A DNA stretch of 64,000 nt. Source: a virus. A program made the translations under genes and the position numbers. The number at the start of each line of letters is the position of its first letter. The stretch's first letter is position 1. The notes beneath the pieces are model-generated. The model did no database searches and was not told the origin of the DNA. It saw only the letters and a program-made list of their open reading frames with translations. This document shows, piece by piece, positions 38,077-44,283 of this stretch. The stretch spans positions 62,001 to 126,000 of the IMG/VR virus record IMGVR_UViG_3300047319_001872. One strand, written 5' to 3'.

Positions 38077-38634
38077 ATGCATTTCATAGCAAAACGCACG
38101 CCTGCGATGGAGTGGGCCTTCTGGAAAGCACTGAATGACGGCGCCCAGGTGATTGATTTTACCCAGATCGATCACGATAAACTGGCAGCGCTGTCTCAGC
38201 ACACCGAGCTGCTTAAGCAGCTCGATCGCTGGATCTTGCATCCGGACAAGACGCTCCTGCCTTCACTGCGCGCTTTGGCCAAGATTGTCAACGACCTGTA
38301 TCACTTTAAGGAGTTGGCTCTCTTTCGCGGCTTTGATCCGTCGATTGCCTATCAAGACACCATGGGTCTGCAACGGGGCCGGTACGCGACGGGTGAGCGC
38401 CACGATTATCCGCTTGAGAACCCACTGTCTTTTAGTACGGAGTTGAAGATCGCTCAGAGCTTTGGTCCGACCGTCGTCCGTACCCTGGTCGATCCGAATC
38501 ATCCCTTGGGACTGGTAGTGACCGATGAGCTGTCGGTGCTCGTGTCCCAGCTTCGCAATATCCGTCCGGAAACCCAAAAAGAAGTCATTATGTTTCCGCC
38601 CGCCGTTATTCAGTTCACCATAATCGAGAAATAA
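38077..38634 (+). CDS. Probable mono-ADP-ribosyltransferase (R-S-E class)
   Basis: 185 residues from the ATG following GAGGCAGGT. Residues 80-185 carry the three signatures of R-S-E class ADP-ribosyltransferases in order: an Arg at the end of the first strand (ELALFRGFD, Arg84), the S-x-S/T motif followed by a helix (PLSFSTELKIAQSFG, Ser118-Ser120-Thr121), and a QxE pair before a hydrophobic strand (ETQKEVIMFPP, Gln167 and Glu169). T4 Alt and ModA are phage examples of the fold; QxE rather than ExE is typical of enzymes that modify Arg-independent sites such as Asn. The N-terminal 75 residues are helical. The target is probably a host protein, but this cannot be read from sequence. It is transcribed with the internal head protein gene 3 bases downstream. 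Confidence 0.72.
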   Translation: MHFIAKRTPAMEWAFWKALNDGAQVIDFTQIDHDKLAALSQHTELLKQLDRWILHPDKTLLPSLRALAKIVNDLYHFKELALFRGFDPSIAYQDTMGLQRGRYATGERHDYPLENPLSFSTELKIAQSFGPTVVRTLVDPNHPLGLVVTDELSVLVSQLRNIRPETQKEVIMFPPAVIQFTIIEK

Positions 38635-38636
38635 CC

Positions 38637-40781
38637 ATGAAACGACGCATGAGCCTGGAGAGCATCGCCGCTCTGGGTATGGAATCCTTCGACTCAGCCC
38701 CCACGGGCAATGTCCAGCCGACGATGCAGGGCGCAACCCCTGAGCAACCGCTGGTCACCTCCGGCTACAGCGAGTCACCTTTCAGTGGCTCGGAGAACTA
38801 CGCCGCCGAAAAGCTGGCACAGCGGGTGAAGGAAGCCATCGAGAAGCCGCTCTTCCCGGTACGCTACGCTTCCGAAGCCGAAGCCATCGTGGTGGACGAC
38901 GATGAGTTCGACGCGCTGATCAAATCCTCCACGGCTGCGACAGCGGTGTGGGACGACAACAGTGAAGTCTCGCTCGAAGCCAAGGACAGCAACAAGCTGG
39001 CCGTGGCCAAGAACAAGCTGCACGGGCGCTTTAAGAAGATGTTTGAGGGCTGGAAGGATGGTTGGCGCACCATGCCGGGCCTCATCAAGAAGTACGAGGC
39101 ACGCCTGGCCGAACTGCAGAAGCAACTCGACGGCACGATCATCCGGGGTCCGCTCGATGTGAATCTCTCGGGTCTGTGGCAGCACTTCTCCAACGACGCG
39201 GGTCCGATTCACAACAACTTCATGCACAAGGTGCAGGAGGACTTGGCGTTCTCGAGCTATATCCTGGGCGACTTCTCCAAGGAAGCGATGGCCCAGCTGC
39301 GTAAGCTGGAGTCGGCGTTGCATACGGGCCAAGGTAACTCGGACGAAGAAGCCAAGCGCACGGCGCTCGACCTCGAGAAGCTCGAAGCCCCCTCGATGTA
39401 CCTGGACCACAAGTGGATGTGCGTGTCGGGCGAGCAACCGTATCTGTCGGTGACGGGTATCTACGCAAACCAAGGGCGCGTGCCGCGTCCGGTCGCCATC
39501 GGCGGTGTGTCGATGGAGAAGCTCGCCAAGATGGCGATGCCGTTCCATGTCCGTGAATACGGCTCGTTCCTGCACGGCATGAAGAAGCTCTTCGTGAATG
39601 GCAGCAAGGCGAACGTGCGCTTGACCGAGAACGATCTGGAGAACCTGATCAAGGCCGGTCAGACGTATCTGGAGAATGCTCGCGGTTACATGGATAACTA
39701 CCATAACAGCTGGCCGATCTTCCGTCGCATTGACGAGTCGCTCGAAATGATCTGGAATGACTTCGATCTGACGGACTACTCGATCACGTTGGGTGATGAG
39801 AACGACGAAGATGCCATGGAAATTAGCTGGCAGACTTCGGGCACGGGTGACGTGACGCGTCGCGCGGCACTCTACGATCAGATCCTGATGGTGGTGCAGA
39901 ACTTCGCGGACTCGGTGGTGGCGCCGGGTAGTCATGAAGCCCATCGTGCGCTGCGGGCAGCCAAGTTCCACTGCTACTTGCTCGAAGCGGCCCTGAAGGC
40001 CGTCAAGTCGGCGGCGATGGAATCGATGATGGTCCCGGCACGCCTGGAGCGTAAGCTCGCTCAAGAGATCTTCGGTTTTGGCAAGAAACCGCATACGCCT
40101 GCTCAGTATCAAGAGCCGGAATACGCGAAGATCCCGAAACCGCAATGGGACCCGAAGCACCCTCCTTCGATTACGGAGTCCGTCAAGACGCTGCGCGCCG
40201 CCATGCAGCAACATGATCCGGAAGGCCTCAAGACGTTCCATCGTCCGGCCACGCCGCAAGAGCTGCAAGCATTGTCGGCGCTGGTGAAGCAACATACCGG
40301 TAAGGACCTGCCGCCTGATTACGTCGAATTGTACAAAATCAGCAACGGCGGGATCTCGGCCTATCGGCACCTGAAGCTGCTCGATCACGACGAGTTCATT
40401 CCGATTCACGAAGTGATCGCCGAGTACAAGCAGCGCCTGGCCTTCATCAAACGCGACTGGGCCGGTCAGAAGTCGAAGTGCTACGCGGGCGTGCAGGGCG
40501 AAAACTGGTGGGAGCCGTGGTGGGTGCCGTTTAGCGCAAGCGGTTCGGGCGACGGCTACTGCGTGGACGTCAATCCGGGTTCGGGTGGCACCTTCGGTCA
40601 GGTAGTCGACTGGGGTCATGACTTCAATGACCGCGGCACGCGCGCTCCGAGCCTCGCGGCCTTCGTGGCGCTGTCGATTTATCGCCAGCTCTACCTCTTG
40701 CAGCACAAGAAGGATTGGGAAGCCAAGAACGGTCCGGCTCCCAAAGAGGAAGAGGACGAAGACGACGATCTCGACTTCTAA
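38637..40781 (+). CDS. Internal head protein fused to a C-terminal SMI1/KNR4 (SUKH) domain
   Basis: 714 residues. An acidic N-terminal segment ends at EVSLE-AKDSNK (Glu114), a likely protease site; after it comes a basic amphipathic helix (KNKLHGRFKKMFEGWKDGWR) and long helices, as in the two neighbouring head proteins. Residues about 540-685 match SMI1/KNR4: helix ELQALSALVKQHTGKDLPPD, YVELYKISNGG, WWEPWWVPFSASGSGDGYCV and DVNPGSGGTFGQVVDWGHD followed by APSLAAFVALSIYRQL. SUKH domains are known as immunity proteins against polymorphic toxins and as binding adaptors. In a protein likely packed in the head it could be delivered into the host. The tail ends in a poly-acidic stretch (EEEDEDDDLDF). 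Confidence 0.78.
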   Translation: MKRRMSLESIAALGMESFDSAPTGNVQPTMQGATPEQPLVTSGYSESPFSGSENYAAEKLAQRVKEAIEKPLFPVRYASEAEAIVVDDDEFDALIKSSTAATAVWDDNSEVSLEAKDSNKLAVAKNKLHGRFKKMFEGWKDGWRTMPGLIKKYEARLAELQKQLDGTIIRGPLDVNLSGLWQHFSNDAGPIHNNFMHKVQEDLAFSSYILGDFSKEAMAQLRKLESALHTGQGNSDEEAKRTALDLEKLEAPSMYLDHKWMCVSGEQPYLSVTGIYANQGRVPRPVAIGGVSMEKLAKMAMPFHVREYGSFLHGMKKLFVNGSKANVRLTENDLENLIKAGQTYLENARGYMDNYHNSWPIFRRIDESLEMIWNDFDLTDYSITLGDENDEDAMEISWQTSGTGDVTRRAALYDQILMVVQNFADSVVAPGSHEAHRALRAAKFHCYLLEAALKAVKSAAMESMMVPARLERKLAQEIFGFGKKPHTPAQYQEPEYAKIPKPQWDPKHPPSITESVKTLRAAMQQHDPEGLKTFHRPATPQELQALSALVKQHTGKDLPPDYVELYKISNGGISAYRHLKLLDHDEFIPIHEVIAEYKQRLAFIKRDWAGQKSKCYAGVQGENWWEPWWVPFSASGSGDGYCVDVNPGSGGTFGQVVDWGHDFNDRGTRAPSLAAFVALSIYRQLYLLQHKKDWEAKNGPAPKEEEDEDDDLDF

Positions 40782-41712: not shown

Positions 41713-42948
41713 ATGAAATCCTTTAACATGCGCGCCGCGCTCGAAGCGCGTCCGATCGAAGACCAAGACCTGGAAGATACTGCCAAGCCTGCGCCGGACG
41801 CAGGTCAGATCGATGGCGACACCACGACGCTCTCCGGCATGGCCAAGCCCGGTCAGAATCCGGTGCCCGATACGGAAAACGTCGCCACTGAAGGCACTGA
41901 GAAGATCGACACGCGGCCGGTGGATCTGGATGACGTGGTGCTGATCGAACAAGACCGTCGGGCGTTCCAACCGGAGTCGACTGGTAGTGCCGAGCACGAT
42001 GCGATCAACGCGCAGAACATCGCCCAGGAAGGCTGGGTCAGCAAGAAGTTCGAAAACATCAAGGATTTCTTCACCCGGCGCGAGAAAGAACTCGAAGAAG
42101 GTCACACGGCCACCAAAGAGAACCTGGAAGCCATCACCCGGCTGCGTACGAAGCTCCAGGTGCGCCCTGGCGAGGTCACCCGTGACGCAGATACCATCAC
42201 GATCAACAAGTTCGCCAAGTGGCTCTCCATCGACGGCAAGCACATCACTGATCCGGTACGCCTGATTCGCGAACTGCATCGCATCCATGAATTCGTGCAA
42301 TGGACCGGTTCGCTCGACAAGGCCTGGCTCGAGGGCTACAAGTTCGTCGCCGACCAAGTCTGGAAGCTCGGGGAGTCGGATCTGAAGAAGGCCGAAGAAA
42401 ACCTGAAGAAGCTCTGGCAAGTGGCGCGACCCGTGGGGGCGGATAAGTTCCTCTCGGTCACCAAGGTCGAAGAGTTCAAGGGCAAGAAGTACACCGATCA
42501 TCACACGCCGTTTTTCCTCGGTCAGTGGTGTCTGTACGAGACGGCCCAAGAAGAGCAGGTTCCGGCACCGGGCGGGATCGTCTCGGTGGTGCGTATGAAG
42601 TCAGCAAAGGCCGTCGGTGGTGCGGAGTTCCCGGCACTGAACAAAACCCAGATGAAAGAAGTGCTCGACATCTGCGAGAAGATCGAAGCGCACCTGGCGT
42701 CACTCACCTTCGATGGTCGGATCGTCGATCGTTATCTGGATGCGCTGGACGAGTTCGCGTATCGCTACCGCAACTTCAAGTCGCTGCCGCGTGAAGAGCA
42801 GACCATCGTCTCGCGCCTGTACACCTGGGGCCAGTTGATCATGGACCACGACACAACGTACCTGCCGACGGCGTTCAGCAACCACCTCGTCAAGGTACTG
42901 TTGAGCTACGTCGAGAAGTCGATGCGTCGTATTGAAGTTGCTAAGTAA
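41713..42948 (+). CDS. Internal head (inner-body-like) protein precursor
   Basis: 411 residues. Residues 1-106 are acidic and Pro/Asp/Glu-rich, ending in NIAQE-GWVSKK (Glu106), a fit to the small-x-Glu prohead protease motif. The remainder starts with a basic amphipathic helix (KKFENIKDFFTRREKELEEG), continues in long helices and ends LPTAFSNHLVKVLLSYVEKS, similar in layout to the two adjacent head proteins. Giant phages package several such cleaved paralogs inside the head. It would be processed at maturation and perhaps ejected with DNA. It forms an operon with the next gene, 12 bases downstream. Confidence 0.7.
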   Translation: MKSFNMRAALEARPIEDQDLEDTAKPAPDAGQIDGDTTTLSGMAKPGQNPVPDTENVATEGTEKIDTRPVDLDDVVLIEQDRRAFQPESTGSAEHDAINAQNIAQEGWVSKKFENIKDFFTRREKELEEGHTATKENLEAITRLRTKLQVRPGEVTRDADTITINKFAKWLSIDGKHITDPVRLIRELHRIHEFVQWTGSLDKAWLEGYKFVADQVWKLGESDLKKAEENLKKLWQVARPVGADKFLSVTKVEEFKGKKYTDHHTPFFLGQWCLYETAQEEQVPAPGGIVSVVRMKSAKAVGGAEFPALNKTQMKEVLDICEKIEAHLASLTFDGRIVDRYLDALDEFAYRYRNFKSLPREEQTIVSRLYTWGQLIMDHDTTYLPTAFSNHLVKVLLSYVEKSMRRIEVAK

Positions 42949-42960
42949 AAGGAGTCCTTC

Positions 42961-44283
42961 GTGGAAGACGTAATCGAACAACCGGCGATCGTCACGTTGA
43001 GTGATGACGTCGAATGCAATCGCCTGAATGATGCGCTCGATAAACTAGGCGAGCTGGGCACGCGCTTGCAAGAAGACGGCCAGCTCACGGTCGATGTGGC
43101 GCTCGAACATCAGGCCCTCACCGGTAGCAATGCGCTGGTGAACACCTACTACAGCACGCTCGCTAAGCAACAGAAGCTCAAAGTGGCTCAGGAAGGCCTC
43201 TACGAGCAAGCCAAGAGCCTGCTGAAGAAGGCGATGGACCTGCTGTGGGAAATGATCGTCAAGGTCTGGAAGTGGCTGCAAAAGCTCTTCGTGAATGGCG
43301 AGCCCATGACCGAAGCGGCCCTCGCCAAGGAGAACGAGAAGTTCAAATCCTTCGTGATGCCGGTCCAGAAAGCCGAACGAGTCCCCAGTTCCCGTACCGC
43401 CATCATCCAGGCGGTGCGCGAAGAAGGCCTGAACGAAGCCTTCGTCAGCAAGTTCACGCCGGAAGAGATGGACATCTACAACGAAGGTCCGTACCATCAG
43501 GCCGTGCAACGCATGATTCCGGCCCTCGATGGCTTCAATGTAGCGAGTGTGGTCGAGACACTGGTGAAGTGGCATGAGAAATGGTTGCCCGCAGGTCGTC
43601 AGTTTGATCAGGACAACGCAGGCGCTGATCCCCATGCGCTGCAGGATAAGCTGGAGCGCTTCCAGAAGGACGCACAGACCGATCTGGAGCACGCCACCTC
43701 CATGGCTACCAAGCTGATGCAGATCCGCCTGGAGAGCTACCAGACGGCTGTGGAAGCACGTCGGAAACTGAAGATCGATCCGAACTTCCATCTCGGCACC
43801 GATCTCTCCGGCATCATCGCACGCGGCGTACGCATCTACGACCAGTCCGGCTACAAGAAGATGGGTGCGGCACTCACGGATGTCTTTAAGTCGCTCGACT
43901 CGACCGTGAACAAGATGGAGTCGATTCGTACCAAGGCCTACCAGAATCCGATGCCCAACGATCACGGTGGGGTCAAAGCGGGCGAGGAGTGGATCGAACA
44001 GATCTACATGAAGGAAGTCAATCGCATCATTTCGACGCTGCATCAATGCGTCTCGATGATTCAGTTGATCAACAACTACTACTCGTTTGTGGTGGGCTCG
44101 GGCAAGACGATCATGCAGTACTGCATGAAAGTGGCGTACGCGGCGACTCGGCACGGTGGTGATGCAGCCACCCTGAACGAAATCACGCGCACCGGTGCGA
44201 CGGCCTTTGGCCAAATACTGGGTGATCAGGCTAGTGTGAACGCTCAGCAGCAGGGCGCAGGCATGCAAACCGACCTGGGTTAA
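42961..44283 (+). CDS. Internal head (inner-body-like) protein precursor
   Basis: 440 residues from a GTG behind AAAGGAGTCCTTC. The acidic N-terminal segment ends at KVAQE-GLYEQA (Glu78), nearly the same junction as in the upstream paralog. The segment after it, KSLLKKAMDLLWEMIVKVWK, is strongly amphipathic and cationic and could contact membranes or DNA. The rest is helical, with the C-terminal pattern LHQCVSMIQLINNYYSFVVG matching the position of related stretches in the two paralogs. It ends at a strong two-way terminator. Confidence 0.7.
   Translation: MEDVIEQPAIVTLSDDVECNRLNDALDKLGELGTRLQEDGQLTVDVALEHQALTGSNALVNTYYSTLAKQQKLKVAQEGLYEQAKSLLKKAMDLLWEMIVKVWKWLQKLFVNGEPMTEAALAKENEKFKSFVMPVQKAERVPSSRTAIIQAVREEGLNEAFVSKFTPEEMDIYNEGPYHQAVQRMIPALDGFNVASVVETLVKWHEKWLPAGRQFDQDNAGADPHALQDKLERFQKDAQTDLEHATSMATKLMQIRLESYQTAVEARRKLKIDPNFHLGTDLSGIIARGVRIYDQSGYKKMGAALTDVFKSLDSTVNKMESIRTKAYQNPMPNDHGGVKAGEEWIEQIYMKEVNRIISTLHQCVSMIQLINNYYSFVVGSGKTIMQYCMKVAYAATRHGGDAATLNEITRTGATAFGQILGDQASVNAQQQGAGMQTDLG

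Follow-up and report, generated by a model that had tools for sequence, protein, structure and literature searches.

The C-terminal part of a 714-residue protein encoded in the window (the whole 64,000-nucleotide stretch of DNA analysed here, part of a 313-kb IMG/VR virus record) is almost certainly a SUKH-1 domain, and it is joined to some 460 residues that look like an internal head protein. Close relatives of this phage have swapped the SUKH domain, doubled it or never had it, which suggests that a giant nucleus-forming phage may inject, along with its DNA, an interchangeable factor that blocks host toxins or defences. Our preferred reading, with a probability of roughly 0.5, is that the domain is a virion-delivered, swappable inhibitor of host toxin or defence effectors, carried by an internal head protein. 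The features on which this reading draws are listed below in window coordinates, a slash marking a candidate cleavage site.

38077..38634, plus strand: possible ADP-ribosyltransferase (ART)-like gene, directly upstream, varying between relatives (weak assignment)
38637..40781, plus strand: complete reading frame with ATG start, 714 residues, comprising propeptide, head module, linker and SUKH domain
38637..38978, plus strand: predicted N-terminal propeptide, residues 1-114, starting MKRRMSLE/S and ending at the predicted protease site VSLE/A
38979..40022, plus strand: helical head module, residues 115-462, 96-97% identical among close relatives and without SUKH in contig L007
40023..40244, plus strand: variable, largely disordered linker, residues 463-536, with candidate protease sites at its start, AAME/S (E462) and LAQE/I (E477)
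40245..40706, plus strand: SUKH-1 (SMI1_KNR4) domain, PDC-M40A-like, residues 537-690, identified by HMM, sequence profile and fold
40027..40780, plus strand: stretch replaced in contig L005, with no nucleotide similarity inside and similarity back at the stop codon
40910..41650, plus strand: phrog_5043 protein (PHROG match), kept in position
41713..42948, plus strand: neighbour with a weak phiKZ_IP (PF12699) match (HMM below cut-off) and an ALE-11 motif
42961..44283, plus strand: neighbour with a weak phiKZ_IP (PF12699) match below cut-off and an internal head protein PHROG match

The SUKH assignment was first made in a preliminary description from hallmark motifs in the C-terminal part of the protein. 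These motifs are indeed found in the reading frame, and the profile search for SMI1_KNR4 that it had named as a check confirmed the domain: PF09346 matches residues 537-677 with E=1.9e-17 and 64.5 bits, the curated cut-off being 25.4. The same cut-off is exceeded by the HMM matches of the homologues in contigs L003 and L005 and of both SUKH domains in phage FLC9, and a scan of the whole 313-kb record for SUKH found a single place (E=2e-19). A profile built from the phage SUKH domains retrieved yeast Knr4/Smi1 chains as its top solved relatives (4e-12 to 3e-10), and Foldseek, run with a domain model of moderate confidence, matched Knr4 (E 1.5e-6) and the Listeria structure 2icg (probability 0.89). 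The relatives sampled were seven viral contigs and one isolate. Among these the fusion is seen again in four other IMG/VR contigs (L002, 99% identity; L003, 84%; L004, 84%; L005, 71%) and in gp96 of the isolated, fully sequenced Burkholderia glumae phage FLC9 (47%); extra scans of viral contigs gave no new SUKH-bearing members. An assembly chimera as the source of the fusion is ruled out by its occurrence in several samples and one isolate.

The record also encodes chimallin ChmA (E=7e-34) and PhuZ, together with phiKZ homologues of the prohead protease, the major capsid protein, further structural proteins and the virion RNA polymerase, which makes it a phiKZ-like and probably nucleus-forming phage (Chimalliviridae). 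Several features of the first part of the protein are of the kind seen in phiKZ inner-body proteins. Residues 1-20 (MKRRMSLESIAALGMESFDS) form an SLE-type start resembling that of, for example, gp93 (MSLLKMLDKLSLESIED), and SLE also occurs near the N-terminus of phiKZ gp94, gp95, gp97 and gp162. In phiKZ the cut in gp93 lies at SLE-13 (PMC5694885), and the motif of the protease, S/A/G-X-E, shows an enrichment of LSxE (PMC10449902); the MKRRMSLE start is capsid-targeting-like and of this type, and cleavage is predicted there. A second site is aligned family-wide at the end of a region of about 114 residues that is disordered according to the model, reading VSLE-114/A in the window, L004 and L005, MAME/S in FLC9 and VALE/G in L007. 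In SPN3US, gp53 and gp54 have known propeptides with lengths of 125 and 137 residues (PMC10052503). The major capsid protein of our phage has an ALE site aligned with phiKZ GLE-163. Since S-x-E motifs are present inside the head module too, motif presence alone is no proof of cleavage.

An AlphaFold model of the helical body, of low confidence (pLDDT 50) and computed from an alignment without the FLC9 rows, gave 37 BFVD matches at E<=1e-3, with phiKZ-group virion proteins at E 2e-6 to 1e-3; the named matches were mostly from jumbo phages, and several were labelled virion structural or internal head proteins. The PF12699 HMM gave no match to the reading frame, and HHalign of the head module against phiKZ gp93, gp94, gp95, gp97, gp162 and gp163, run with thin alignments and no structure terms, returned nothing, so sequence homology of the head module to PF12699 is not claimed. 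The earlier proposal of a fusion to an internal head protein is thus well, if indirectly, supported by the targeting and cleavage motif, the propeptide boundary, the phiKZ_IP-like neighbours and the fold match, though not by membership of the PF12699 family. With the propeptide lengths and the capsid ALE site added, this evidence makes it very likely that the protein is packaged in the head. In another structural gene cluster of the record, outside the window, a 761-residue protein (G000:C1:243788-246073) matches phiKZ gp94 (phmmer 7e-9, HHalign 85%) and is by sequence a better phiKZ_IP candidate than the window genes.

The linker may hold the means of releasing the SUKH domain. The linkers of SUKH-bearing proteins together hold 11 A-x-E motifs against 3.8 in shuffled sequences (p=0.0002, a value that overstates independence as the linkers are partly homologous), and in every SUKH-bearing protein one such motif lies directly ahead of a hydrophobic pair containing F (AQE/IF, AQE/FF, ALE/FF or AQE/LF). 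In FLC9 the aligned A-x-E motifs are AME-299 and AQE-655. Cuts at these sites are predicted to free the SUKH domain inside the head. Separate translation of a free SUKH from within the linker was also considered, but none of the in-frame start codons there was seen to be preceded by a Shine-Dalgarno-like sequence.

The comparison of close relatives shows where the cassette begins and ends. Between L004 and L005 the head modules are 97.1% identical in amino acids (dS 0.36) and the flanking proteins (helicase, phrog_5043 protein and both IP neighbours) 97.3-99.0%, whereas the SUKH parts are 29.9% identical with a dS of 2.8; this difference in dS indicates replacement rather than fast amino-acid change. 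Similarity to L005 in blastn ends at about residue 461 of the L004 protein or 463 of the window protein and returns, in both, at the stop codon, so linker and SUKH were exchanged as a unit and, on the nucleotide evidence, are an interchangeable cassette. The window and L004 differ in the same direction (head 96%, dS 0.48; SUKH 64%, dS 1.8), and between these two the SUKH domain is under purifying selection (dN 0.31, dS 1.8, dN/dS about 0.17). In the SUKH tree the C-terminal domains of the window, L004 and FLC9 form a supported clade with L005 outside, and in an AU test a single clade of the window, L004 and L005 domains was not rejected (p=0.20). Because the tree could not prove a separate origin, the claim of replacement in L005 is drawn from the abrupt break in identity and dS. 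Contig L007 has a stop codon at the junction and no SUKH, and the start of the different gene that comes next resembles the FLC9 paralogue gp97. In FLC9 gp96 there are two SUKH domains, the second inserted in the propeptide region. The gp97 gene itself (L001 12712-14145) follows the SUKH gene and encodes a SUKH-less paralogue of the head module, of which the window group has none at that position.

Outside phages, the relatives of these SUKH domains are found in Duganella, Oxalobacteraceae, Herbaspirillum and others, at 26-38% identity. In Duganella the adjoining gene encodes an Imm33-like immunity protein, which suggests that this relative sits in an immunity island; beside several of the bacterial relatives, no clear toxin partner gene was found. 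A relative on a Klebsiella plasmid is the A gene of PDC-M40, a three-gene defence candidate in PADLOC. Five distinct phage SUKH domains all match PDC-M40A, at 82-106 bits, and matches at E<=1e-20 occur in only two of 300 genomes from the order of the Duganella relative, so that the match is not a generic SUKH score. No B gene (PDC-M40B) turned up in the phage record with a search that does find B elsewhere. We found no publications on PDC-M40.

With these observations in mind, one may propose the following route. The N-terminal 114 or so residues would steer the carrier, an internal head protein of the inner-body type, into the prohead and would then be removed by the phiKZ-type prohead protease, leaving the helical body in the head alongside the DNA. 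The C-terminal SUKH domain would be the cargo, possibly released by the same protease at the A-x-E sites of the linker. Upon infection the cargo would enter the cell together with the genome, and it would bind and block a toxin-like effector of the host, either the effector of a defence system or a polymorphic toxin, before phage gene expression. Exchange of the cargo as a cassette between near-identical phages would be expected if hosts differ in such effectors.

Packaging, cleavage, injection and target of this carrier and cargo are what we infer. Once packaged, the protein is likely to be injected, and once injected it would probably act as an inhibitor of a host effector; these judgements, like those on SUKH identity and packaging, are rough ones. 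Several observations raise the likelihood of injection and toxin neutralization: near-identical phages have swapped the cassette, SUKH is under purifying selection, its bacterial relatives include one in an immunity island and one in a candidate operon of phage defence, and some phiKZ inner-body proteins have been shown to be packaged and injected. Work on phiKZ describes the injection of gp93, gp95, gp97, gp94 and gp163, and inner-body proteins there are still packaged when they carry a C-terminal tag, fluorescent proteins among them (PMC10449902), so that a C-terminal fusion that arose naturally could plausibly be delivered in this way. Against a T6SS nuclease effector, one SUKH domain can be enough to confer immunity (PMC12247911), and Ip2 and Ip3 of phage T4 are injected proteins that inhibit type IV restriction enzymes of different subtypes (PMC12373910). 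Taken with the phiKZ data, these precedents make an injected, exchangeable inhibitor the most likely reading.

Other readings must be weighed against it. SUKH is a generic protein-binding fold and the protein is probably in the head, which would suit a structural or assembly adaptor that plays no part against the host and binds a virion component, for instance inner-body partners or the virion RNA polymerase. A structural interface, however, is expected to co-vary with its virion partner, and here the SUKH domain has been swapped down to 30% identity while neighbouring head proteins are still 97-99% identical; the head module of L007, moreover, does without SUKH, and FLC9 has two. We consider an adaptor unlikely. 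That the protein stays unpackaged and functions late in infection, for instance as a shield of the infected cell against toxins from rival bacteria or phages, is very unlikely given the SLE-type N-terminus, the propeptide boundary, the phiKZ_IP neighbours and the fold match.

The gene directly upstream raises a different possibility, namely that SUKH is the immunity partner of a phage-encoded, co-packaged toxin and silences it in the producing cell. The product of this gene, which lies between the helicase and the SUKH gene, has R-G, SFS and QKE-type motifs, and its L005 counterpart has a weak DRAT match. L003 and L004 lack it at this position and carry elsewhere in the same cluster a diverged, longer ART-like gene (10990-11712 in L004) with ALE propeptide-like motifs, whose product is possibly another packaged cargo, like T4 Alt. 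Such a pairing nevertheless appears very unlikely: the ARTs of the window and L005 are 85% identical although their SUKHs are different, L007 has the ART and no SUKH in its head-module gene, no ART lies beside the FLC9 gene, and the ART assignment itself is weak, the structure model being too poor for use. Apart from this weakly assigned gene, no polymorphic toxin genes were found among the phage neighbours of the SUKH gene that we examined. The selective match of all phage SUKHs to PDC-M40A would also fit a protein that mimics or poisons a SUKH-containing host defence complex instead of acting as an antitoxin. We regard this as quite unlikely, given that PDC-M40B too occurs in only two of the 300 genomes of that order, that the defence candidate is unpublished as far as we could find, and that the PDC-M40A model may equal a mere SUKH subfamily, SUKHs from genomes without the B gene scoring far higher.

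The preferred reading, a head-borne and exchangeable inhibitor, has parallels in known systems and departs from each of them. T4 internal proteins have cleaved targeting propeptides and vary rapidly. Ip1 (IPI), Ip2, Ip3 and Alt of T4 are head-packaged and injected, as proposed here for the SUKH carrier, but the IPs are unrelated in sequence, have no SUKH fold and are small separate proteins rather than a domain on a large inner-body protein. Phage phiKZ gp93, 94, 95, 97, 162 and 163 share with the carrier the SLE-type N-terminus, the propeptide and the gene cluster, and the carrier has a predicted likeness in fold to phiKZ-group virion proteins; no cargo domain has been described in them, and PF12699 covers 93, 94, 95, 162 and 163 and not the head module reported here. 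Some proteins of the herpesvirus US22 family, part of the SUKH superfamily, are carried in the virion and counteract host responses, although virus group and target differ and they bear no specific relationship to the phage SUKH. By HMM, sequence profile and fold the phage domain belongs to the same family as the SUKH-1 immunity proteins (SMI1/KNR4; Imm-SUKH), and the two-SUKH form of FLC9 resembles polyimmunity proteins (PMC3482391). Bacterial SUKHs, however, stand alone or within polyimmunity proteins beside toxins, whereas the phage SUKH sits on a head protein. With respect to PDC-M40 (genes A-B-C), the phage SUKH is of the A type (E 7e-29), but the search of the phage record revealed no B gene.

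A 2026 review names Tad1 as so far the sole anti-defence protein described in jumbo phages (PMC13282480). If our reading is true, a head-borne, swapped immunity protein shows how these phages could intervene in the minutes that precede nucleus formation, it links polymorphic toxin immunity to phage counter-defence, and the SUKH variant of each phage is a readable natural record of which host effectors matter. FLC9, an isolated phage with the fusion, makes the idea directly testable. One may speculate further, as a rather doubtful extension, that the nucleus-forming phages of this lineage possess a virion-delivered polymorphic immunity system. In it an inner-body carrier would bear an exchangeable SUKH cassette at its C-terminus, which the prohead protease would cut free and which, after injection, would neutralize host defence effectors (possibly PDC-M40-like) before the start of transcription.

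SUKH genes are also carried by temperate SPbeta-like phages of Bacillus, where they probably form toxin-immunity pairs and have no connection with the fusion described here. Another fusion occurs in L074 7-2016, from a genome of the order of the Duganella relative, where a PDC-M40A-type SUKH is attached to the C-terminus of a protein that by eye resembles a molybdopterin-biosynthesis (MoeA-like) protein.
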